DNA from: an uncultured Pirellulaceae bacterium
GTDB taxonomy: Bacteria > Planctomycetota > Planctomycetia > Pirellulales > Pirellulaceae
Length of the DNA stretch: 64,000 bases
NCBI GenBank assembly: GCA_905480235.1
Contig: CAJQPP010000021.1
Coordinates: forward strand, 1-64,000
Direction of reading: 5' to 3'
Below the pieces are notes generated by a model. That model was not told the origin of the DNA. It saw nothing but the letters and a program-made list of their open reading frames with translations, and ran no database searches. Positions within the stretch are counted from its first letter, which is position 1; every line of letters starts with the position of its first letter. This document shows, piece by piece, positions 49,373 through 64,000 of the stretch. The translations under genes and the position numbers were made by a program.

Positions 49373-50233
49373 CTACGCGGTAGCTACTGCGGCCTGAGGA
49401 ACGTCGTTGAAACCAATTCCGTTTTCAGCATCAGCCGAAGTCTTCGCACGTGCAATGAAGTAAATCAATACTCCAAAGCCTGCTTTCGCAGTCATGTCAG
49501 CAATCGCATAACCGATCTGCAAACCGACAATTCCGGACGCATCACCTCCACCGCCTGACGCGGCTTCCAATGCGGCAGGCGTGCTGCCAAGCATGTAGGC
49601 GATTGGATACACCATCCAAGTAACCAGAATAACAACGCGGGCCAACTTGATGAGGCCTTGAGCTGCTGCAGGTTGCGAAGAAAGTGAGGCCGTCAACTCG
49701 ACCCACAAAACGTACAGAATGTACAGAAACGGAATGACCGAAAGACCAAACCAAACCCAACGCATGGATGCGTTTGCGGGATCGGTAATGACTTCACCCG
49801 GGTAACCCAGGCCGATCATCAATGCGGCCGCGATGATCAAACGTGTCAAAATCGAACTGGCCTTGTTGCGTGATAGTCTCATCACAGCGACCAATTCTAC
49901 TAACAACAGGGGCACCGTCAGGATCCAATCGGCATAGCGATAAAAATCATTGAACGCTGCTCCCGTCCCCGTATACCCACCGCCACCTTCGGTAAGTGCG
50001 TAGGCATTATGCCAGCTGTGGCGGATCATAAAGTAATGGTAGCAAGCGATCGCAACGACGACACCTGACACCATCAAAGCTGGTCGATACGCGAAACCGA
50101 CCGTCGATCGGGCCGCGAAAAAGAAGAGTGCTGCAGCCCCCATCGTCGCAACCGTCATGGAAAAAATGTTATCCACGATGTTGAATTGAAAGACGGAAAG
50201 ATCGGGCATGCCGAGAAGGGTTAAATCGAACAT
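49373..50233 (-). CDS. Proton-pumping microbial rhodopsin (proteorhodopsin/xanthorhodopsin-like)
   Basis: 286 aa, seven-helix retinal protein. Schiff-base Lys250 in IADMTAKAGFG with counter-ion Asp246; helix C reads RYADWILTVPLLLVEL: proton acceptor Asp102, Thr106 and donor Glu113, the D-T-E pattern of outward H+ pumps. His66 (YHYFM) matches the conserved His of proteorhodopsin. The spectral-tuning position (Leu110, equivalent to residue 105 of proteorhodopsin) predicts green absorption. The ATG at 50233 has AGGAG 9-10 nt upstream. First gene of a six-gene operon that makes its own chromophore. Text such as LMIGLGYPGEV and GLSVIPFLYILYVLWVEL is closer to the xanthorhodopsin/actinorhodopsin side of the family; whether a carotenoid antenna is bound is not decided. 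Confidence 0.95.
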   Translation of the reverse strand: MFDLTLLGMPDLSVFQFNIVDNIFSMTVATMGAAALFFFAARSTVGFAYRPALMVSGVVVAIACYHYFMIRHSWHNAYALTEGGGGYTGTGAAFNDFYRYADWILTVPLLLVELVAVMRLSRNKASSILTRLIIAAALMIGLGYPGEVITDPANASMRWVWFGLSVIPFLYILYVLWVELTASLSSQPAAAQGLIKLARVVILVTWMVYPIAYMLGSTPAALEAASGGGGDASGIVGLQIGYAIADMTAKAGFGVLIYFIARAKTSADAENGIGFNDVPQAAVATA

Positions 50234-50255
50234 GTAAAAAAACTCCTGCCGAACG

Positions 50256-50411
50256 CGGCAAAAACTGTCAAAACTGCCAAACTTGGTGAACGACCGCCGC
50301 AAGAGGCGGGTTAGTAACAAGTAAAATGCCCTTGGCCGCAATGTTTTGGTAGTTTTGGTAGAATTTTTGATCGAATCCGAGGGATTGGGTCGAGATTGAA
50401 CCTTTTGGCAA
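50256..50411. promoter_or_regulatory. Candidate operator: tandem 9-bp repeats between rhodopsin and regulator
   Basis: The shared 187-bp intergenic region has five copies of a TTTTGRYAG-like 9-mer. Minus strand, adjacent: TTTTGACAG (50265-50273) and GTTTGGCAG (50274-50282). Plus strand, adjacent: TTTTGGTAG (50344-50352) and TTTTGGTAG (50353-50361), plus TTTTGGCAA (50403-50411) overlapping the regulator's ribosome-binding site. A -10-like TAGAAT (50359-50364) overlaps one copy. Tandem direct repeats suit MerR/CarH-type proteins that bind as oligomers. Confidence 0.55.
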
Positions 50412-50420
50412 GGAACCTCC

Positions 50421-51269
50421 GTGCAAAAACTTCTCTCCACTTCGCAATTCGCAGAAGCGATTGGCCTCAGCGTATCGACGGTCCGCCGGCTTACGGACGG
50501 CGGAGATATCAGTGTGCGTAGGACCAAAGGCGGGCATCGAAAAATCCCCGTTGAAGAAGCGATTCGCTATTCACGAACCAACGGTATCCAACCGCAAAAC
50601 CCCAAATTATTGGGTATTTCATTATCCGAAGATGCGGAAGATCCCGACAGTTTTTATGAATCGCTCGTAAGCGGTGACAGTGATAAGTCGGTGGCCATTC
50701 TGCAGACCTTATACTTAAACGGTCAGGAAATTAACGCCATTTTTGATGGTCCGTTTTTGACGGCGTTTGTGAGGATCGGTGAGTCCTTTCCGGCGGACAA
50801 AAAGAGCATTTTTGTCGAGCATCGCAGCTTAATCATCGCGATGCGGTCGTTGATGCAACTGCGTTCAATCATGCCACCGGTCGAGGATTCTGCACAGAAA
50901 GTCATTTGCGCTGCACCCGCAGGTGACCCTTATTTGATTCCCTGCCTGATGTGTGCACTTGTCTGCCACGAAGTCGGTTACTTTGAAATTAACCTCGGTC
51001 CAGATACTCCGTTGAAAATTATCATTGATGCAGTAGAAGACGAGGCGCCGAGTTTGGTCAGCCTGTCCATTACCAATGCAATCCGATCGAAAAATCAAAT
51101 CGGTGAAATTGAAAAACTCCACAAGGTCGCATCAGATAAAAACTGCATTTTGGTCGTCGGCGGTAATAACGCCGATTCGGTTGATGTGCCCGGTATTCAA
51201 CGCGGATACTCGATGACCGACCTAAAAGCGATCGCCGAAAACGCGCTGCAAAAGCCAAGGCACGGGTGA
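50421..51269 (+). CDS. CarH/LitR-like transcriptional regulator with B12-binding-type domain
   Basis: 282 aa, GTG start with AAGGA 6 nt upstream. Residues 1-50 form a MerR/excisionase-type winged helix (STSQFAEAIGLSVSTVRRLTDGG; TKGGHRKI). Residues about 75-150 match the helical cap of CarH: a W-x9-EH motif appears as Phe123-x9-Glu133-His134. Residues about 160-275 are a Rossmann B12-binding fold (YFEINLGPDTPLKIIIDAV, LVSLSIT, CILVVGGNN). The cobalt-ligating DxHxxG motif reads D169-P-Y-x-x-P, so the lower axial His is missing. CarH proteins repress carotenoid genes in the dark; this one is divergent from the rhodopsin-carotenoid operon, so it is the likely local regulator. The loss of His suggests a changed ligand. 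Confidence 0.82.
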   Translation: MQKLLSTSQFAEAIGLSVSTVRRLTDGGDISVRRTKGGHRKIPVEEAIRYSRTNGIQPQNPKLLGISLSEDAEDPDSFYESLVSGDSDKSVAILQTLYLNGQEINAIFDGPFLTAFVRIGESFPADKKSIFVEHRSLIIAMRSLMQLRSIMPPVEDSAQKVICAAPAGDPYLIPCLMCALVCHEVGYFEINLGPDTPLKIIIDAVEDEAPSLVSLSITNAIRSKNQIGEIEKLHKVASDKNCILVVGGNNADSVDVPGIQRGYSMTDLKAIAENALQKPRHG

Positions 51270-54028: not shown

Positions 54029-54706
54029 GTGATGAATTTCCCGCCTTTTGACCCACTGTTGAAAGGTTGGATCGGCGACGATGAAAAACGGAAACAAAAT
54101 GGCGATCCTTGGCCAAGTTGGTTGGATGATATTTTTTCCTTCATGCCACACAACGCCAACACGGTTGATTTGCTTAAGCGAGTGAATTTCTTTGCCAAAG
54201 GAGTTTTGGCAAAGCACTTTGCAGCCGCTGGATTTCATGTCGAATTCGATGACGACCTCTCGGGCGAAGAGAACTTGAAATTCCTAGAGGTAGCACTCGA
54301 CGGCCGGGAATGGCACGGGCAGATGCTCACCAAGCCAGAATCACCAGGTGGATTATGCGGCGAACGCTTTCTTGGGTTGGTACCGCGCGGCAGATGGCCA
54401 GGGCCGAAGCCTCTTTCGGCAGCGGGTTTAGGGCCGGTTGCTTCTTGGGCCGGACACGGGTCGAGTCTTTGCTTGGCGGTCTTTCGGTCTACCGGTCGAC
54501 GACAACCGCCTCGGCGATCTTTGGAGCTTGGTCCGTTATTATTCGCGATCAAAAACCGGATAGACACGATCCTTGGCTCGATCGTAACAGACCTTTCCGT
54601 CGACGATTGCTTGTTCGACATAGGTTCGGTAATCCAGGGGAGGTCCGTTAAGAATCAAGATGTCCGCATCTTTACCGACTTCGATGCTACCGATGCGATC
54701 TTCTAA
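54029..54706 (+). CDS. Doubtful hypothetical protein
   Basis: 225 codons, overlapping the convergent amidohydrolase gene by 168 bp, so its 3' part is suspect. The first 100 residues look protein-like (PFDPLLKGWIGDDEKRKQNG, VNFFAKGVLAKHFAAAGFHV), with balanced composition. After about residue 105 it turns Pro/Gly/Arg-rich, which looks like a shifted frame. It may be a gene truncated by a frameshift near 54330. No family recognised. Confidence 0.3.
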   Translation: MMNFPPFDPLLKGWIGDDEKRKQNGDPWPSWLDDIFSFMPHNANTVDLLKRVNFFAKGVLAKHFAAAGFHVEFDDDLSGEENLKFLEVALDGREWHGQMLTKPESPGGLCGERFLGLVPRGRWPGPKPLSAAGLGPVASWAGHGSSLCLAVFRSTGRRQPPRRSLELGPLLFAIKNRIDTILGSIVTDLSVDDCLFDIGSVIQGRSVKNQDVRIFTDFDATDAIF

Positions 54707-56134
54707 TCCCAGCATTCTCGCCGGGGTGATGGTAATCGCGGCCAGCGAGGTTTTTTCGTCGGCACCTCCACGCACGGCAAACGCTGCCTCGAGTGGTAGA
54801 CTGCTGAGGTCGCGACCGGCTAGGCCTCCCAAGCTGATGGAGCTGCTAAGTGCTGATACGGCAAAGGGGATGCCCGCTTTTTGGAAAATGCCGGGCGAGC
54901 CGACATGGCTGCCGGATGTCTCTTCGGCCCCTCGACGGGCATTGCGGCGACGTCGTGGGGTGTAGATGACTTGGGTTTCCGATTGACTAACGTCGTCTAC
55001 AACCAGCCAAGCCTCGGTACCGCCCTCGATGATCAAGTCGTAATCCAGTTCGGATGCCAGGTCGGCCATGTCTTTAATTTCATCAACGGTATCGGCAGAA
55101 ATCCGCAAAGCGATTTCATGCTTCAACAATCGCAACAATTCAGGGTTAATACGAGAACCACCGCGACTGCTCGAGGCTGCCGTTCTACTGCCTGAACTGG
55201 CGCCAGCTTTCGAGGCGGTGCCCTCCTTGTCGCCAGGTTTCGCGGTGTTGGTGTCTTTCTTTTTGTCCGCCTCTGCTTGAATCGCTTTTTTCGCTTTTAA
55301 TACTTCGCGCCTCCAATTGTGGCGGTTCAGGGCGCCCGTGAGTGATCCGGGATTCGGGCTGTAGAAGACATTCTCTTCCAGCAGCATGGAATCCAGGTTT
55401 CCGAAACTCAGTTTGAGAGCAGCGAACTTTCGCGGCTGGGGTTGGCTGGGGGGACGAGACGTAATCGGTTCCGTGGGCAGCACGGGCAGACCACAGCACG
55501 GACACAATGAAGTGTCCTCGTCACCATAATCCAGCAAAGCTTCGGTTACGTACTCTTCCGGGTTGGGGTCGAGCCCCAGAAATCGTTCTTCGGGTTCACC
55601 GTTGCGTCGTCGTCGGCCTCGACCGCCTCGACTGGAAAGTTCCACGCAACCGGAGGTGATCCCAACGCCCAAGGCAAATTTCATATTTCGATCGAACGGA
55701 TCCAGCGCATCGTTGAGTTTGTCCTGTTTCTGCGGTGCACTTCGGACACCAAGACCACTCATGTTGATGGCAACGAAACCGGGTGTGATCACTTTCCCCG
55801 TGGCGTCGATGATTGTGGCGCCTTCGGGTACCTCGATATCATTTCCGAGTTCTGTGATTTTTCCATCCTGCATGAGCAGCGTCCCGCCACGGATCATTGA
55901 CCCGGTCACGGTGTGAATATCTCCACCCACGACAGCGGTGATGGGGCCCGCTTCTTTTTTCTCTTGTTCGTCTGCGGCTTTTTCCGGCTTCACCTCGCGT
56001 TGTTGGGCGCGTCGGCCTTCGCTGCCACGGCGGCGGTTCCGCGGACCATCATCTTGTGCGGTAACCAAGGTGGCAGCACAGGACATCACGATGACCAGCA
56101 AGCCTGTCGAAATCATGTTTGTTCTAACGCTCAT
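54539..56134 (-). CDS. Amidohydrolase-like exported protein, metal ligands missing
   Basis: 531 aa, last gene of the amidohydrolase operon. Signal peptide (ISTGLLVIVMSCAATLVTA), a charged Arg/Glu-rich stretch, then the composite beta domain (GGTLLMQDGKITELGNDIEV) and barrel of COG1228 amidohydrolases. Where active members have HxH after PG (PGxIDAHSH) this reads ITPGFVAINMSGLG, so no metal pair. The middle holds a low-complexity region (about 150-330) with CPCC and Ser/Gly/Lys-rich text. The C-terminal part is standard (ITPARMLGLEDRIGSIEVGKDADILILNGPPLD). Overlaps the previous gene by 11 bp. Probably not an enzyme of the usual type. Confidence 0.75.
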   Translation of the reverse strand: MSVRTNMISTGLLVIVMSCAATLVTAQDDGPRNRRRGSEGRRAQQREVKPEKAADEQEKKEAGPITAVVGGDIHTVTGSMIRGGTLLMQDGKITELGNDIEVPEGATIIDATGKVITPGFVAINMSGLGVRSAPQKQDKLNDALDPFDRNMKFALGVGITSGCVELSSRGGRGRRRRNGEPEERFLGLDPNPEEYVTEALLDYGDEDTSLCPCCGLPVLPTEPITSRPPSQPQPRKFAALKLSFGNLDSMLLEENVFYSPNPGSLTGALNRHNWRREVLKAKKAIQAEADKKKDTNTAKPGDKEGTASKAGASSGSRTAASSSRGGSRINPELLRLLKHEIALRISADTVDEIKDMADLASELDYDLIIEGGTEAWLVVDDVSQSETQVIYTPRRRRNARRGAEETSGSHVGSPGIFQKAGIPFAVSALSSSISLGGLAGRDLSSLPLEAAFAVRGGADEKTSLAAITITPARMLGLEDRIGSIEVGKDADILILNGPPLDYRTYVEQAIVDGKVCYDRAKDRVYPVFDRE

Positions 56135-57455
56135 AAACGGACCTGCCCATCAAGAATACCTGTTTCAGTCGACTGCCGGTTGCCAGAGGGTCACCATGAA
56201 AGACGAGGAAATTAGCCACTTTGTCTTTTTCTAGTGAGCCGAGTGTTTTATCGATTCCCAGCATCTTGGCTGGGCGTGTTGTTAGTGCTTGCAAAGCCGT
56301 ATCTCGAGGTAGGCCGGATTTCACGAGCATGGCGATCGGGAACAAGGGATCGTCTTGGCTGCTAATCATCTGGCTGTTGTTGAGAGACAAGGAGATTGCA
56401 AAAGGAATTTTCTTGCTGTGTGCCATTTGCGGCACGTTCATTAGCTGAGAACTGTAGGGTACGGTGTCAATCGTCGGTTGCATCACCAGCGTGATGTTTT
56501 TTGAATCCCCAATGTCATCCAACGATTGGAAGAGGTTGGGGCCCGTGGCTACCAGATGAATTTTAGCGTCTTTAGATTTTTTCAACATCTTGTTTAGGTG
56601 TGCGACGGTAGCGGCGTTGTTGGCGTTGACAACGAGCGCTTTTTTGCCTTCGCGAACGGCTTTCCACATGTCCTTAATCGGATCCGTTTCTGGCTTCTTC
56701 GGCGCTGTTTTTTCAGCCACTTTTTTGGTCTCGGATGCGGAGCCACCTGTGGGTGGTTGGGCGCCTCCACGGCCCCGTCTACCGGCCCTCATGCGTGCGA
56801 TCATTTCAGCGCGACTCATCGATTTCCCTCGACTACTCTTGCTGCTGGATTCATCGGCCAGATTTTTTCGGATCGTGTCTAAGGCGCTGGTTTGATTTGT
56901 GACCTTTGCGAACAGGAATCCATCGCTGTCTGTCAAAAGCATTTCCGGGGTGGGATCGGGTACCGGTTGGGCGATCGCCGATAGTCCACGTCCGTCGGTG
57001 ACTAACTGAGCCGTCGTAATGCCGCTGCGAATGGCAGGCATAAAGTCGACATCATAGGGGTAAAAGTTTTCCGCAACGTTGGTGAAGCTGCCCACGCTGA
57101 AAGTGGTAACTGGGCGGCGAAAGACCCGTCCGCGGAACGTAAAGGTCTGTTGCGAACTTGCCGATTGGGTTTTTTTGAAGACGTAATAAGGATCGATGAT
57201 CCCCGGCATGACGGTTTTTCCCTGTAGGGAGACGACACGCGCATCCCCGGGTATTTCGATGTCTTTACCGATATCAACAATCTTGCCGTCCCTCACCAAC
57301 AGCGTGCCATTTTCGATTTGCCCCAGTGGCCCCATCGTCATCAAATTGGCATCGGTGTAAGCCACGGTTTGGCCAAACGAACAGAGACTCCAGGCTCCTA
57401 CCACCATGGCGGTAACGAGTCCGAGCGACTTGGATATGATCAATTGTTTATTCAT
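56124..57455 (-). CDS. Amidohydrolase-like exported protein, metal ligands missing
   Basis: 443 aa. Signal peptide (LGLVTAMVVGAWSLCSFG), beta domain (IENGTLLVRDGKIVDIGKDI), then VMPGIIDPYYVFK where PGxIDxHxH is expected, so the metal-binding pair is absent. A basic insert (AEMIARMRAGRRGRGGAQ) with Lys/Pro-rich text interrupts the barrel near residues 215-265. The C-terminus is typical (ALTTRPAKMLGIDKTLGSLEKDKVANFLVFHGDPL). Starts 12 bp after the upstream gene. Homologous to its neighbours; function unknown. Confidence 0.78.
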   Translation of the reverse strand: MNKQLIISKSLGLVTAMVVGAWSLCSFGQTVAYTDANLMTMGPLGQIENGTLLVRDGKIVDIGKDIEIPGDARVVSLQGKTVMPGIIDPYYVFKKTQSASSQQTFTFRGRVFRRPVTTFSVGSFTNVAENFYPYDVDFMPAIRSGITTAQLVTDGRGLSAIAQPVPDPTPEMLLTDSDGFLFAKVTNQTSALDTIRKNLADESSSKSSRGKSMSRAEMIARMRAGRRGRGGAQPPTGGSASETKKVAEKTAPKKPETDPIKDMWKAVREGKKALVVNANNAATVAHLNKMLKKSKDAKIHLVATGPNLFQSLDDIGDSKNITLVMQPTIDTVPYSSQLMNVPQMAHSKKIPFAISLSLNNSQMISSQDDPLFPIAMLVKSGLPRDTALQALTTRPAKMLGIDKTLGSLEKDKVANFLVFHGDPLATGSRLKQVFLMGRSVYER

Positions 57456-57467
57456 TTTGAAGTGCTA

Positions 57468-58727
57468 TTAAAATCTTTGCCGATCGACTTTGGTATCGTA
57501 AACACTGCGACCATCAATAAAGACCTCGGTGACATGATTCCGCGGGTCCAGTATGGAACCGGTGGTAATCACAATGTCGGCGTCTTTGCCTTTTTCGAGC
57601 GAGCCAACTCGGTCATCGATCATCAAGGCTTTTGCTGCTTGAATGGTCAAACCCTTGATGGCGCGCTCTTCACTCCACCCATAACGTACCGCCATCGCGG
57701 CTTGAAAGAATAATTCTTCTTGTGGAATTACGGGTGCGTCGGTGTTGACGCCGAGGACTTTGATCCCTCTTTTCTCATATTCGTTAACAATCCCGACGAC
57801 CTGGCCTTGGTCGCGATCTAACAAGAATCCGCGTGGGCCAGCCATCACTGGAATATCACGTTTGGCCAACTCTTTGCCGATCTTATAGGCGTCAAAGGTG
57901 CCGTGATCGATCACGACTTTGAGGTTCATTTCATCATGCAGAATACGCACCGTTGATTGAATGACCTGGTACTGTTGGGTGTGCACCACGACCGGGATTT
58001 CACGATGGAATAGGGGTTTAAAATATTCCAAACGGAGATTGAATTCGGGTTCAGGAGCCTCGCCGGCCTGGAAAGCGTCCCACTGGCGAACGTACATTTG
58101 GCCTTCTCGCAGTTGTTGCCGAATCACGTAGTTCATGCCCATTCGCCCGGAACCGGTTTCCCCGGTTCGTCTTTCCGGGTTGCCAGCTTGAGCGATCTTC
58201 AAGACACCCGGTGCACGCATGATTACATCTTCGGGTTTGCCGGGGCCCGTTTTCATGAGCACGCCAAATCCGCCCATGTTGGTTCCGCTGCCCGGGATAT
58301 AACAAATCGAAGTCACACCCCCAGCAATGGCAACTTTTAGTTGATCATTATGCGGAATCACTTGATCCCAATTGCGCAGCTCCGGGTTGGTCTGATAGAC
58401 CATTTCATTTAAGTCACGGGAGCCGCCGACGTGGCTATGCGCGTCAATTAAACCAGGCATCGCGAAATGATCAGAGTGGTCGATTTCCTGATATCCCTCG
58501 GGCACCTGAATTTCACTCCGTGGACCGATGTCTTCAATTTTTCCGTCGCTGACCAAAATCGTACCGTTGGCGATCGGATCGCCGACCGACGTCAATATTT
58601 TACCGACATGAATTGCCAGTTTGGGTTTTTGGTTCTTATCGGAGTCGTCGGTTTCTTGAGCAGCCAATCCGATTGGCATGCAAAAGAAAAGTGCGACCGC
58701 GAAAAAACTTCGCCCAAACGCGAACAT
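57468..58727 (-). CDS. Amidohydrolase (COG1228-like) with complete metal site
   Basis: 419 aa from the ATG at 58727; signal peptide (FAFGRSFFAVALFFCMPIGLA). The only module in the row with all ligands: HSH in PGLIDAHSHVGG, His in PVVVHTQQYQV, His in VVIDHGTFD and Asp in VNTDAPVI, as in imidazolonepropionase-like and prolidase-like enzymes. Probably hydrolyses an amide, lactam or imide in the periplasm; the substrate cannot be read. GGFGVLMKTG and the C-terminal SLEKGKDADIVITTGSILDP are family-typical. Frame is open to 58772, but the signal peptide decides the start. Confidence 0.88.
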   Translation of the reverse strand: MFAFGRSFFAVALFFCMPIGLAAQETDDSDKNQKPKLAIHVGKILTSVGDPIANGTILVSDGKIEDIGPRSEIQVPEGYQEIDHSDHFAMPGLIDAHSHVGGSRDLNEMVYQTNPELRNWDQVIPHNDQLKVAIAGGVTSICYIPGSGTNMGGFGVLMKTGPGKPEDVIMRAPGVLKIAQAGNPERRTGETGSGRMGMNYVIRQQLREGQMYVRQWDAFQAGEAPEPEFNLRLEYFKPLFHREIPVVVHTQQYQVIQSTVRILHDEMNLKVVIDHGTFDAYKIGKELAKRDIPVMAGPRGFLLDRDQGQVVGIVNEYEKRGIKVLGVNTDAPVIPQEELFFQAAMAVRYGWSEERAIKGLTIQAAKALMIDDRVGSLEKGKDADIVITTGSILDPRNHVTEVFIDGRSVYDTKVDRQRF

Positions 58728-58741
58728 TGAACTTGGAAATA

Positions 58742-61390
58742 TCACTCTTGTTCCTCTCGATCGTATACCCATGATCCATCAATCATCACGGCCAGAACTT
58801 TGGTTGCATTTTCAAATGGCGGGCCACTCAACACGATGAGATCAGCATCATTTCCGGGTATGAGTGAACCGAATTTCATTTCTTTGGAGAGCAATTCGGC
58901 CGGTGCCGATGTCAGGGCCCGCAAACCGTCTTGGGCTCCCAGACCTTTGCTCACCGAATATTGAATTGCCGCTGGCAGTTGTCCGACCCCGGTGGTTCCC
59001 TTGGATTGAAAAGCGAACGTGACCTGTTCGTTAGCAAGTAATTGAGGCAGGTTCGTCGTGCGTTTATCAATCGTTACGGTCATCTCAGGACCGGCGCAAA
59101 CACCGACGTCATAGCCTTTCAACAAATCGGGGAAACGTGCCAAGTCATCGCCGCCCGCAATAACTGTGCGGATCTTGTATTCATCGACAAACAATTTCAA
59201 TGCTTCCTTGATCGCTGGTGATTTGCGAGCCTCCACGACGGCCGGTATTTTTCCGGTGAGCAATGCTCGGTAAGGTTCCAAGGCTTCATTTTTCTTGGGT
59301 TCTTTGGGAGCGGGTTCTTCTTTTTTGGCATCGGTTTTTTCCGCGTCATCTTTGGATTCGCTGCCGCCCTCTTTGGCGTCTTTGGTATCGTCGCTATCCC
59401 CGTCCTCTTTTTTGTCTTCGTCTTTAGTCGCGGGCTTTTCTTTGTTTTCTTCGGCGGGCTTTTCCGCTTCTTCTTTTTTAACCTCTTTTTTGGCGTCCTC
59501 GGGATTTTTGGATTCCGCTGACTCCTGTTTAGCTTTCTCGGCCTTCGCTTTTTCTGCTGCTTGTGCTTTCGCCTCTTCAGCAGCCAGCTTTTTCTGGGCT
59601 TCCTGTTTCTCGTTGTAAGCGGCCAGGTCCTTGTCGTATTTAATAAACGACTCGTGATACGCTTTCCCGGCCTGCAGTGTTTTTTTCAAAGCGGCAATGG
59701 ATGTAGCGGTGTTGTCACTGACTTTGAAACGAATGGCAACCGGATCGGCGATGACGCGTACATCGTCACCGAGTTTGAAAGCGACCAACGGCGTACCGCT
59801 GCTGGAGGACATGGATCCCAGCAGTACCGTGGTGACACCCTGTTCCCGAGCAAACTTGATCGCTGGATCGTCGGCGTACAGTTGTTCACCTAATTTGGTG
59901 TTCATTCTGACCGAACCACTCAGGGGTCCACCGAGACCAATTCCGGTACCCAAGTCCACGAATCCGGGAACGATCACCGCGTCGGCGTAGTTCCTTACTT
60001 CGGCATCCACAGGAGCGGAAACATCGGCGCCGATGCCACGCACGGTTTTTCCTTTAACGACGATACGAGCGTTATCGATAATGTGCCCGTCACCCGTGTA
60101 TACCTTGCCGGCACGTACAACGGTTGTTTTCGTTTTTGCAGCGCGATCGAAAACCGGTTCGCCATTGACATAGGTCGCCATGACCGCGGTGTGCAAAGCA
60201 AATGGTGCGTTGTTCAATATTACGAAATCAGCATCTTTGCCGGCGGCAAGTTGTCCGACCCGATCATCGACCCCCAACATCTTGGCAGGTACATGGGTCA
60301 ACATGGAAACCAGTTGATTCTGACTTAAGTCATCTTTCATGAACTGGCCCGCTACAAACAAGATGTCCTTCAATTCCTCATCGGCACCCGGTTGCACGGC
60401 GACCGGAATTCCGGCGTCGAGTAATTCCCGGGTAAACTCCCAAGGTTCGTTTTGCTTTTTCAGCTCTTCCGTTGTCGGGTTGGTGATTTTGCCAGGCGAT
60501 AATCCGACCAGTACAACGCCTTTGACAAAAGAGGACCAATCTGGAAAGTCATCCACAAACGGTTCGAGGTCTTGGCAATCTGTAAGGATCACCTGAAAAC
60601 CAAACTGCTTCGCCAAACCAATCGCTCCCCGAATTTCCGGAGCGGTTTTGGCGCTGATGCGAACGACTCCAGAATCTTGCAGATGTTGGGCGAGTGCGGT
60701 AATGACCTCATCTTGACTAGCCGTCGCTGAATCATTGGCGTCGGGGACGTCTGTAAACAACAACCGCAAACCGGCCAGAGAACCGGCCAATGTTGAGAGT
60801 TGCGGACGCGTCGGTTCCAAGGGACGATCTTCGGATACCGGACCTACCTGGGGTTCATAAATGCGTGGAGGCTTGCGAGCATTATCGTCCAACACAATTC
60901 GCATACTCTCGCGATCCAGAAGCAATCGATTCGCCAGATCGTCGCCGGATAACTTGACGACCGCGCCTACACCAGGCATCAAACGATTTTCGCCAGCGGA
61001 TATCTGTGCCGATGTGATGCCCGATTCAAGGTAAGCACTTTGGTCAGCAAAAAAATCAAACCCATCGATCGCCATGATCTGAGGGGTGAGCGTTTTGGGA
61101 GCATCCTGAGTTCCAGCCAATTGCGTTTTGGCAACGACGATGCCGGGCATGATCGAGCGACCGGCCAAAGAATGTTGGCGAGCATTTGCCGGGATAGCGA
61201 CCGAGTCGCGTGGTCCCACCGTTTGTACTTTCCCATCCACGACCACCAACACGGCATCGTGAATCGGTTCGCCGTCGCCAGTCCAGATCGTATCCGCGAC
61301 ATAGGCGTCAACCTGCCATGAAATTGCCGGATTGCATAACAGCAAAACGACAACGGCGAAAACGCCCAACTTGATTTGGAAACAACTCAT
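58742..61390 (-). CDS. Double-module amidohydrolase-like protein, metal ligands missing
   Basis: 882 aa from the ATG at 61390. Two complete amidohydrolase modules in tandem: the first ends near PAKMLGVDDRVGQLAAGKDADFVILNNAP, the second begins at VVRAGKVYTGDGHIIDNARI and ends PAELLSKEMKFGSLIPGNDADLIVLSGPP. Both lack HxH: IMPGIVVAKTQLAG in the first, IVPGFVDLGTGIGL in the second. The second barrel is split by a highly charged Lys/Glu/Ala-rich segment of over 100 residues (59287-59618 in DNA). Signal peptide at the N-terminus (VFAVVVLLLCNPAIS). AGGA 9-10 nt before the ATG. Probably an internal duplication or a fusion of two operon members. Confidence 0.82.
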   Translation of the reverse strand: MSCFQIKLGVFAVVVLLLCNPAISWQVDAYVADTIWTGDGEPIHDAVLVVVDGKVQTVGPRDSVAIPANARQHSLAGRSIMPGIVVAKTQLAGTQDAPKTLTPQIMAIDGFDFFADQSAYLESGITSAQISAGENRLMPGVGAVVKLSGDDLANRLLLDRESMRIVLDDNARKPPRIYEPQVGPVSEDRPLEPTRPQLSTLAGSLAGLRLLFTDVPDANDSATASQDEVITALAQHLQDSGVVRISAKTAPEIRGAIGLAKQFGFQVILTDCQDLEPFVDDFPDWSSFVKGVVLVGLSPGKITNPTTEELKKQNEPWEFTRELLDAGIPVAVQPGADEELKDILFVAGQFMKDDLSQNQLVSMLTHVPAKMLGVDDRVGQLAAGKDADFVILNNAPFALHTAVMATYVNGEPVFDRAAKTKTTVVRAGKVYTGDGHIIDNARIVVKGKTVRGIGADVSAPVDAEVRNYADAVIVPGFVDLGTGIGLGGPLSGSVRMNTKLGEQLYADDPAIKFAREQGVTTVLLGSMSSSSGTPLVAFKLGDDVRVIADPVAIRFKVSDNTATSIAALKKTLQAGKAYHESFIKYDKDLAAYNEKQEAQKKLAAEEAKAQAAEKAKAEKAKQESAESKNPEDAKKEVKKEEAEKPAEENKEKPATKDEDKKEDGDSDDTKDAKEGGSESKDDAEKTDAKKEEPAPKEPKKNEALEPYRALLTGKIPAVVEARKSPAIKEALKLFVDEYKIRTVIAGGDDLARFPDLLKGYDVGVCAGPEMTVTIDKRTTNLPQLLANEQVTFAFQSKGTTGVGQLPAAIQYSVSKGLGAQDGLRALTSAPAELLSKEMKFGSLIPGNDADLIVLSGPPFENATKVLAVMIDGSWVYDREEQE

Positions 61391-61451
61391 ATTGTAAGTC
61401 CTGTGGTAATCAGATCCCGCCCTGCGGCGCAAGTAATCAGGTATCGCTTGG

Positions 61452-62759
61452 TTACTTTTGATCTGTTTTTCCTAGCAATAATTCCAGCTTTTCGTCGTTA
61501 TCCCGCTCGTAGACGACTTCCCCATTGACGATCGTAGTTTCGACCCAAGTGCCGTTTTTGAGTGGGTCGCCCGTCAAAATAATGACATCGCCATCCTTGC
61601 CTTTTTCCAGAGATCCGACGAATTGATCGACGCCCAAAAATTCTGCAGGTAACAACGTCAGTGCTTTTAACGCCTCGTCTTTTGGCATGCCGTATTTGAC
61701 CGCCGTGGCCGCTTGGTACCAGAGGTAGTTGTTGCCGAGTGTGTTGTTACTGGATCGGGCGACTTGAAACGCAAAAGGAACGTCCTGATCACGAAATGAT
61801 TCGGTGACGACGATCTTCTTCTCCTCGTCGGTGCGTGGATCTTTATCCCAGAACACCATTTGTGAATCGAGAATCACAGGCAAGCCAGATGCTGCCACCT
61901 GTTTAGCCGCTTTGTGGCAGTCGCGACCAAGCACGAGGATGGCGTTCATTTTGTATTGATTGATCAACTGAGTGGCGTAGGCGACATCCATGGCTTTGTC
62001 GCAATAAATGAATACGGGCAGTTTGCCGGATACGACCTTCATCAAGGCCTTTGTCAGTTCGCTATCCGTTTCACTTTTCGGTTTTGAAGGGGTGGCTGCC
62101 GTTTTGCTTTCGCCTTCCTTGGATTTGTCTTCTGCCTTTTCCTCGTCCTTGCCGCTTTCTTTTTTGGCATCGCTTTCGATTTTACGTTTTGCTTCGCCCA
62201 AGGCTTTTCGCAATGCGGCGAGATGCCCCATACGGCTGGTTTGTCCGGCGGGTCGTAGCGAAATTTTCATTCCGGCGTCTCGCTTGAGCACCATGTATTC
62301 GACAAAGTCACCGCCCGTCTTAATGACGGCGGCCTGCCCACCGATCATCGTCGAGTTTCCTGGCACGACCGCCACGCTGGTAACTCCGTTACGACGAGCG
62401 CTGTCAAAATAAGGTCGCATTGGGTCAATTCCGTCCATCACGGAAACATACGGTACGTTTGGGTTGGTCTCATTTGCTTGGCTCAGTCCTTCGGAACTAT
62501 GAGCTTCCACAAAGCCCGGCATCACGACTTTGCCCGTGGCGTCAATGATTCGCGCGTCGACGGGGATGTCGAGATCGGTACCGACCGCAGCAATTTTTCC
62601 GTCCCGTATGAGAAGCGTGCCGTTTTCAATCGCTTCGCCCGCTACCGGAATGATTTTTCCGCCCTTAATCGCCAGCGAGTTCTGGGCGTCGGCAGAGCCA
62701 AAAAAGGTGATCGCAAAAACGATCGCCAAGCTTGATTTCAAGATGGTTTGATATGACAC
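61452..62759 (-). CDS. Amidohydrolase-like exported protein, partial metal site
   Basis: 435 aa from GTG 62759, two bases after the previous gene's TAG; AAAGGAAA precedes it. The frame is open to 62828 but the signal peptide (ILKSSLAIVFAITFFGSADA) begins here. Motif reads PGFVEAHSSEGL: one His, the second replaced by Ser. A Lys/Glu-rich insert (AKRKIESDAKKESGKDEEKA) interrupts the barrel at about residues 185-230. Then VFIYCDKAMDVAY where His is expected, and the standard C-terminus (PAEFLGVDQFVGSLEKGKDGDVIILTGDPL). Likely inactive or altered. Confidence 0.8.
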   Translation of the reverse strand: MSYQTILKSSLAIVFAITFFGSADAQNSLAIKGGKIIPVAGEAIENGTLLIRDGKIAAVGTDLDIPVDARIIDATGKVVMPGFVEAHSSEGLSQANETNPNVPYVSVMDGIDPMRPYFDSARRNGVTSVAVVPGNSTMIGGQAAVIKTGGDFVEYMVLKRDAGMKISLRPAGQTSRMGHLAALRKALGEAKRKIESDAKKESGKDEEKAEDKSKEGESKTAATPSKPKSETDSELTKALMKVVSGKLPVFIYCDKAMDVAYATQLINQYKMNAILVLGRDCHKAAKQVAASGLPVILDSQMVFWDKDPRTDEEKKIVVTESFRDQDVPFAFQVARSSNNTLGNNYLWYQAATAVKYGMPKDEALKALTLLPAEFLGVDQFVGSLEKGKDGDVIILTGDPLKNGTWVETTIVNGEVVYERDNDEKLELLLGKTDQK

Positions 62760-62761
62760 GG

Positions 62762-63949
62762 CTAGTTTCCTTTTGCCTGGCGAGTTGTATTTTTTGGTTC
62801 GGTAATTTTGCCGTCGACCATCACCCATTCGATAGCCGTTGTGAATTCCAAAGGATCGCCCTGAAGGGCAATGAGATCAGCGTCTTTGCCGATTTCGATG
62901 GTGCCGACACGTTCGTTGATGCCGAGGATTTGTGCGGGAGATGTTGTGATCGCCGCGAGTGCCTTGTTGGCGTCCAATCCAAACCGGTGAGCAAAACGTG
63001 CCTGCTCCAATTGATTGTTGCCAGAGATGCAGAATGTGATTCCCGCTTCGTCCAAAATCCCGGCTTGGTTCCAACAGAGTTCTGTTTGCTCGGGCCCGAA
63101 CATGGAGCCGGTGGTAGTACCACCCAAAATAACGGAATAGTTTCGAGCGGAGATCAAATCCGTGATTTTGTAGGACTCATGGCCGCCCACAAGGATGGGT
63201 TGAAAATCAAATTCCTCCGCCAGTGTTGCCGCAGTGCTCAAGTCGTGGGCCACGCGACTGACGATAAAGAACGGGCGTTTGCCATTGAGCGCCTCGGCAA
63301 GCGGAGCGGATTCCATTTTCCCTTGCTTCACTTTGCTTAATGAGTTGCGGAGGATCCAAACGACGCCCATGCGGTTGGTGGGTTGGCGAACGTAAATGCT
63401 GTCAGGTCGCTGCCGTGAACTGTTGCGTGCTGTTGGATCGGAACAAATCGAGGCGACGAGGGCGTAGTCATCATTGACGACTTGTTCGCCACCCGTTTTG
63501 ACAATGCTGGCAATTCCCGAGACGACATTTTGCGTGCCAGGGCAGACACACATGGTGGTGGTACCGGCATGTAATCGCTGCTTCATATCCGTCGACTTCC
63601 AATCGATCGAACGCGCGGCACGGAAATTGGGAGTGATTTCCTTGGTCACCTCATCAGAGCTATCCGCGCCCATTCCCGATTGTGTGTAAGCGTCGATCAA
63701 ACCCGGCATCAAAACCGAACCTTCTCCCAATTCGACCAGTGTCGCATCACCTCGCGTCGCTGCGGGGATAACCGAATCAACTGCTTTTATTTTGCCATTC
63801 TCGACCAGGACCTGGCCGGGTGAGATCGGCTCGCCCGACATGGTGTAAACCGTGCCGGCCGAATACAACACGGCGGCATCGTCTTGCGCGATAACCGTGG
63901 TGACGGTTAACAGGCATATGGTGAAGAGTACGGGGGTTTTTATTTTCAT
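62762..63949 (-). CDS. Amidohydrolase-like exported protein, metal ligands missing
   Basis: 395 aa. Short signal peptide (KTPVLFTICLLTVTTVIA). Beta domain (SPGQVLVENGKIKAVDSVIP), then MPGLIDAYTQSGMG, with no HxH; the later His/Asp positions are also poorly kept (FFIVSRVAHDLS; CISGNNQLEQ). C-terminus normal (SPAQILGINERVGTIEIGKDADLIALQGDPL). Five bases separate it from the preceding gene's stop, so it is translationally linked. Part of the same tandem array. Confidence 0.8.
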   Translation of the reverse strand: MKIKTPVLFTICLLTVTTVIAQDDAAVLYSAGTVYTMSGEPISPGQVLVENGKIKAVDSVIPAATRGDATLVELGEGSVLMPGLIDAYTQSGMGADSSDEVTKEITPNFRAARSIDWKSTDMKQRLHAGTTTMCVCPGTQNVVSGIASIVKTGGEQVVNDDYALVASICSDPTARNSSRQRPDSIYVRQPTNRMGVVWILRNSLSKVKQGKMESAPLAEALNGKRPFFIVSRVAHDLSTAATLAEEFDFQPILVGGHESYKITDLISARNYSVILGGTTTGSMFGPEQTELCWNQAGILDEAGITFCISGNNQLEQARFAHRFGLDANKALAAITTSPAQILGINERVGTIEIGKDADLIALQGDPLEFTTAIEWVMVDGKITEPKNTTRQAKGN

Positions 63950-63954
63950 AGTTG

Positions 63955-64000
63955 TTATTTTTGTTGAACCGATTTACCGCCCACGACCATGTGAACCGGT
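63955..64000 (-). CDS. C-terminal end of another amidohydrolase-like protein (cut by window edge)
   Basis: Only the last 14 codons are visible. They read PVHMVVGGKSVQQK then TAA, which matches the end of the family (VxxVxVGGKxV). This indicates that the array continues upstream, beyond the window. Confidence 0.55.
   Translation of the reverse strand, partial: PVHMVVGGKSVQQK

Follow-up and report, generated by a model that had tools for sequence, protein, structure and literature searches.

Where an active enzyme is known to have a pseudoenzyme partner, this is usually a single dead paralogue. The aspartate transcarbamoylase of Pseudomonas needs an inactive dihydroorotase (pDHO) for its activity, a case in which a dead subunit of the amidohydrolase superfamily is required in an active multi-subunit enzyme (PMC7053772). 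The CRMP/DPYSL proteins of animals are inactive dihydropyrimidinase paralogues that prefer to form heterotetramers, CRMP-4 holding two of the six metal ligands, so that here too dead paralogues from this superfamily sit in heteromers (PMC4051505), and in plants PDX1.2, a dead barrel paralogue, is found in a heteromeric complex with its catalytic paralogues (PMC6829848). Here we describe a tandem array of amidohydrolase-like genes on contig CAJQPP010000021.1 of an uncultured Pirellulaceae bacterium, the first 64,000 nucleotides of which (the window) were analysed; this array keeps eight dead classes beside one live one, in one order, across the Planctomycetota. We hold with moderate confidence, from the pattern of the genes, that one exported metallohydrolase, g5, would work in a heteromeric assembly with eight exported dead paralogous modules as its obligate partners.

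On the contig, which ends at position 69202, the array consists of seven co-oriented genes with nine amidohydrolase modules and extends beyond the window. In the order of transcription the genes are g1 (modules g1N and g1C), g2, g3, g4 (g4N and g4C), g5, g6 and g7. Inside the window there are six neighbouring minus-strand genes (54539-63949) with seven homologous modules, plus an eighth module cut at the edge, just as a first-pass annotation had read it, and the gene at the edge turns out to be a fused two-module protein. All six window genes exceed the Pfam cut-offs for amidohydrolase superfamily profiles (Amidohydro_1, Amidohydro_3). Across arrays, 207 of 255 gene junctions are overlapping or within 20 nt. 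No flanking gene family is common to more than 3 of 27 array loci, and hence there is no conserved non-amidohydrolase partner gene; because no flanking gene is conserved, we regard the array as a self-contained unit.

The single live class is g5 (57468-58772, minus strand, with a probable true start at 58727), the sole module with an intact binuclear metal site. To read the ligand columns, we aligned the modules with a profile built on 38 solitary homologues (Clostridia, archaea and others), every one of which has H,H,K,H,H,D. This alignment also supplied the beta-6 His and beta-8 Asp columns, which are partly wrong in an all-module alignment because of an extra residue that g5 carries there; for g4C, whose beta-1 and beta-4 columns are mostly gaps against the solitary profile, those two sites rest on the all-module alignment. 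The ligands in g5 are H112, H114, K192, H264, H290 and D345 (434-residue numbering), and the HHKHHD set occurs in 26 of 26 array orthologues and in all 38 solitary homologues. The first-pass annotation had singled out this gene as the only one to keep HxH, His, His and Asp, which we confirm, adding the beta-4 Lys. The other eight classes keep between zero and three of the six ligands in all Planctomycetia orthologues, and none reads HHKHHD: g1N, g2, g4N, g4C and g6 keep none in at least 20 of 26 orthologues and at most one in nearly all, g2 and g7 keep zero or one across the 26, g3 two or three, and g1C zero to three. Former ligand sites hold class-typical non-metal residues, namely Arg/Gln/Glu in g1N, Arg/Glu in g4C and Arg in g4N, and in g6 most commonly Tyr at H1 and Asn at H5.

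The strings quoted earlier for the HxH site of the other modules (AINMS, DPYYVF, AKTQLA, DLGTGI, AHSSEG and DAYTQS) are all present. The accompanying statement that the proteins are mostly without metal ligands holds in that no other full set exists; it needs correction for g3, which keeps the first His and the Lys, and for g1C of the source array, which keeps HxH and Lys without the remaining three ligands. In the first set of arrays, g3 has its beta-1 His, beta-4 Lys and beta-5 Cys in 31 of 31 sequences each, with a Tyr before the Cys in 27 of 31; the second His and the beta-6 His are missing, and the beta-8 Asp is gone in most orthologues. This His/Lys/(Tyr)/Cys set of g3 is the only conserved candidate for alternative metal ligands, and nothing of the kind is found module by module. 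Outside the Planctomycetia, complete g5 copies all read HHKHHD and no other class has all six ligands in any divergent array examined, while g5 is the sole intact site in 26 of 26 complete Planctomycetia arrays. Thus, as far as sequence can tell, the array encodes one enzyme with dead paralogues, as had been proposed.

Within the Planctomycetia the array is present in the same order in 26 of 26 complete arrays, from Pirellulales, Planctomycetales, Gemmatales and Isosphaerales and including the isolate Tautonia sociabilis, the arrays fetched being complete wherever the contig allowed. Elsewhere in the phylum 20 loci were sampled, and all share this order of classes while carrying between one and four copies of g5; in several of these divergent loci a g1C, g2, g3, g6 or g7 module is unrecognised or cut, and in several g1N and g1C are separate genes, which are fused in Planctomycetia. 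Three or four tandem intact g5 copies, with dead modules mostly single, were seen in the divergent arrays L119, L120, L121, L178, L183 and L194. The array is therefore not a sporadic possession of one strain, and the pattern of loss is conserved gene by gene across orthologues; since array, order and loss pattern all recur across the phylum, chance is excluded. An assembly or coding artefact is likewise ruled out, the array recurring in independent genomes with conserved sequence. As to frequency, of 398 Planctomycetia genomes searched with g6, 14 have a clear orthologue, and a g3 profile was positive in 13 of 298, all 13 being among the 14 g6-positive ones; the g3 profile matches 103 of 392 genomes in a phylum-wide sample. 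In Armatimonadota a strong g3-homologue or array match was sporadic, occurring in 2 of 151 genomes (L124, G853), and may reflect transfer or misbinning.

A phylogenetic tree built from 134 modules recovers each of the nine Planctomycetia classes as a single clade with support of 99-100; in it the modules of divergent arrays join their matching class (except for long-branch L125 modules and the multiple g5 copies), and the array modules together form one clade against the solitary enzymes. Because the classes are monophyletic and divergent modules join their own class, the nine classes predate the split of these lineages. Recent lineage-specific decay is ruled out for most classes, the losses being common to orthologues of monophyletic classes. 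Between two genomes of the same genus, the ratio of non-synonymous to synonymous substitution rates (dN/dS) stands at 0.029 in g5, and the six dead genes have values of 0.043-0.084. All seven genes are thus under purifying selection, and the dead genes combine this with the loss of catalytic residues, which makes them pseudoenzymes. Conservation is highest in g5, with a mean modal residue frequency of 0.77 and 133 invariant columns, against 0.48-0.64 and 10-62 in the dead classes, among which g3 and g7 are the most conserved.

What might eight dead modules do beside one enzyme? That the ordered set has been preserved across the phylum points to a joint role for the dead copies and the live one, which would probably belong to a single protein complex. 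We infer such a complex from the conserved order, the tight spacing, the selection on all parts, the occurrence of g1 in fused and in split form, and the existence of fused enzyme-pseudoenzyme relatives. In this proposal an exported ancestral enzyme, itself a homo-oligomer, would have been duplicated in tandem, and its copies would have specialised into defined positions of a hetero-oligomer, with loss of their metal sites; the dead modules would now hold, position or regulate the live g5 subunit and perhaps shape access of the substrate. Being fused, g1N would lie beside g1C in the assembly and g4N beside g4C. If the dead set serves as a scaffold for one or several active subunits, one would expect what several arrays outside the Planctomycetia show, g5 in two to four copies with mostly single dead modules. 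The wider statement, that this is a phylum-wide exported machine in which paralogues fill nine ordered positions, eight with catalytically dead modules, and that it goes back to one homo-oligomeric metallohydrolase whose gene was duplicated in tandem and whose copies then differentiated, we put forward tentatively, as a serious possibility.

Planctomycetota also have related systems in which one HHKHHD module goes together with a single dead one, either as separate genes (L038, L039, L043-L045) or fused (L036, L040, L041). Physical association is supported because these two-module relatives occur in both states. The source genome itself has a second locus of this type on contig C109 (L010, 1-3593), in which a dead module (YQQAGS) comes after an HHKHHD one, and the type is widespread in related genomes. 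All these systems resemble the array in belonging to the same family and in having a live and a dead module adjacent or fused, but they have two modules rather than nine (with one further fused module in C109 and similar loci), and their class-specific residues differ.

A number of observations weigh against the proposed assembly. The same-genus genome G001, a draft that is 84% complete, gave no array match, and therefore the system is dispensable or was overlooked in that draft. In two divergent arrays g1C retains five of the six ligands (HYKHHD in L124 and HLKHHD in L184), and g3, with its conserved H/K/Y/C set, could possess an activity of its own. The dead modules evolve much faster than g5, which would also suit loosely constrained binding proteins. 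Finally, the packing between g4N and g4C in a structural model of g4 is uncertain, their relative placement being unreliable at a predicted template modelling score (pTM) of 0.61.

Other explanations should be considered alongside. The residues that each class conserves at its former ligand sites, listed above for g1N, g4C, g4N and g6, are what one would look for if the dead modules were exported proteins that bind ligands independently, each in a pocket of its own, and capture different substrates or products for g5 without any fixed complex. In addition, g4C in its beta-1 and beta-4 windows and g1N in its beta-1 window are conserved above their class means, which points the same way. However, the former pocket windows of other classes (e.g. 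g6 and g7) show little special conservation, and the strict module order, the fusions and the co-occurrence fit an assembly better, and we regard independent binding proteins as unlikely. The invariant His, Lys and Cys of g3, with the Cys usually after Tyr, together with the three to five ligands that g1C and g4C retain in some divergent arrays, raise the question of whether some modules taken as dead, chiefly g3, have had their site rebuilt and act as enzymes, so that the array would be a multi-enzyme pathway rather than one enzyme with a scaffold. Yet g3 no longer has the second His or the beta-6 His, nor in most orthologues the beta-8 Asp, its pattern is not universal in the wider phylum sample (ISVYVA, Q-KYIN and YAVHLQ, in single arrays), and g1N, g2, g4N, g4C, g6 and g7 hold at most one ligand in nearly all Planctomycetia orthologues; a pathway of this kind seems to us distinctly improbable.

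A neutral ratchet, in which tandem duplication and mutual dependence turned a homomer into a heteromer with dead subunits that bring no functional gain, predicts the same complex as the obligate-partner assembly and differs from it in cause only. Stepwise decay is indeed seen, g1C and g4C being richer in ligands in some divergent arrays, and duplication-driven complexity of heteromers is modelled in PMC11066126. But class-specific conserved features, such as the CxxC insertion present in 26 of 26 g7 orthologues and the His/Lys/Cys of g3, suggest specific roles, and we give this explanation little credence. All in all, the first-pass annotation was right on the facts, and its idea of one enzyme with exported pseudo-enzymes, perhaps in a complex, scaffold or binding set, is probably right as well.

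Turning to the individual genes, all on the minus strand, g1 enters the window with its last 46 bases only (63955-64000); the full gene (63955-66576, or 9956-12577 of contig extension L009) encodes 873 residues with modules g1N and g1C and is the first of the array. It is followed by g2 (62762-63949, 395 residues), which matches Pfam, overlaps g3 and has its own set of conserved residues, and by g3 (61452-62828, 458 residues), with the beta-1 His and beta-4 Lys kept and a conserved Tyr-Cys at beta-5. The fused two-module pseudoenzyme g4 (58742-61432, 896 residues) has two Pfam stretches, with g4N at about 60146-61432 and g4C at about 58742-60145. Downstream of g5 come g6 (56124-57455, 443 residues), an amidohydrolase-like pseudoenzyme with Pfam matches that overlaps g7 and has orthologues in the class and the phylum, and the last gene, g7 (54539-56134, 531 residues; PF07969/PF01979). 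The latter is a pseudoenzyme with a class-specific insertion, usually CPCCGLPxLPTEP, in which C211 and C214 of the CxxC motif are conserved and could form a disulphide or a metal knuckle. Between beta-4 and beta-5, g1N, g3 and g4C have long low-complexity inserts, rich in K, E and A and variable in length (e.g. within 58742-60145 and 61452-62828), of which g5 has none. Signal peptides had been ascribed to all modules; by a crude hydrophobicity test, a signal-like N-terminal segment is present at every gene start in 19-24 of 26 orthologues, but the internal modules g1C and g4C mostly lack one of their own, and their export would come via fusion to g1N and g4N.

An AlphaFold2 model of g5 has a mean predicted local distance difference test score (pLDDT) of 82.5, and its best match in the PDB is 3OOQ, a Thermotoga maritima structure (33% identity, E 4.7e-55, template modelling (TM) scores 0.75/0.84), with full-length homology and the same ligand set. 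The model of g4 (pLDDT 81.5, with low values at residues 638-702 in the region of the low-complexity insert) also matches 3OOQ best, and by these matches both models fit the amidohydrolase barrel with an N/C-terminal beta sandwich. No paper naming 3OOQ was found in the literature searched. Solitary 3OOQ-type amidohydrolases from Thermotoga maritima, Clostridia and archaea are closest to g5 in sequence and fold and share its HHKHHD, but are single genes, mostly of 380-400 residues, with no surrounding array in the loci fetched. Named NCBIfam enzymes (Xaa-Pro dipeptidase, imidazolonepropionase) are rejected, all listed scores being far under the cut-off (the best, for g5, is 76 bits against 500). 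Fold and family make a small amide, peptide or ureido compound the likely substrate. Four solitary homologues in Thermoanaerobacter and Caldanaerobacter (L139, L141, L147, L148) lie just upstream of genes for arginine deiminase, ornithine carbamoyltransferase and a carbamate-kinase-like protein, a possible clue to the substrate, and other solitary homologues lie near peptide transporters; the neighbours are too mixed to name a substrate.

Elsewhere in the window, at 49373-51269, a bacteriorhodopsin-like gene on the minus strand is divergent from a regulator gene with HTH/MerR-like and weak B12-binding matches and overlaps the 5' end of this regulator gene, which possibly exerts light- or B12-responsive control of the rhodopsin.

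More generally, the array represents an exported enzyme system, so far uncharacterised, of a phylum in which extracytoplasmic biology is poorly understood, and it implies that many Planctomycetota genes labelled simply 'amidohydrolase' are probably not enzymes. It also offers a rare bacterial case in which to test the transition from a homomer to a many-part heteromer and the purpose of dead subunits. In the Pseudomonas complex the partner of pDHO is an unrelated transcarbamoylase, there is a single type of dead subunit and the whole is cytosolic, which sets it apart from the array; no partner transcarbamoylase gene was seen near the array, where flanking families are common to at most 3 of 27 loci. 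The CRMP/DPYSL proteins differ in being cytosolic neuronal proteins that share no single ordered operon with an active member, and PDX1.2 belongs to another enzyme family and is one dead type, whereas the array has eight dead classes. For the array, the case for such a hetero-oligomer is indirect, coming from gene order and spacing and from g1 and the two-module relatives, which are fused in some loci and split in others. We found no paper on such an array in the open-access PMC literature, and we know of no described pseudoenzyme-enzyme assembly in which one active type is surrounded by so many different dead paralogues. The system is of the enzyme-pseudoenzyme kind, and it is unusual in the number of its dead classes and in the depth of their conservation.

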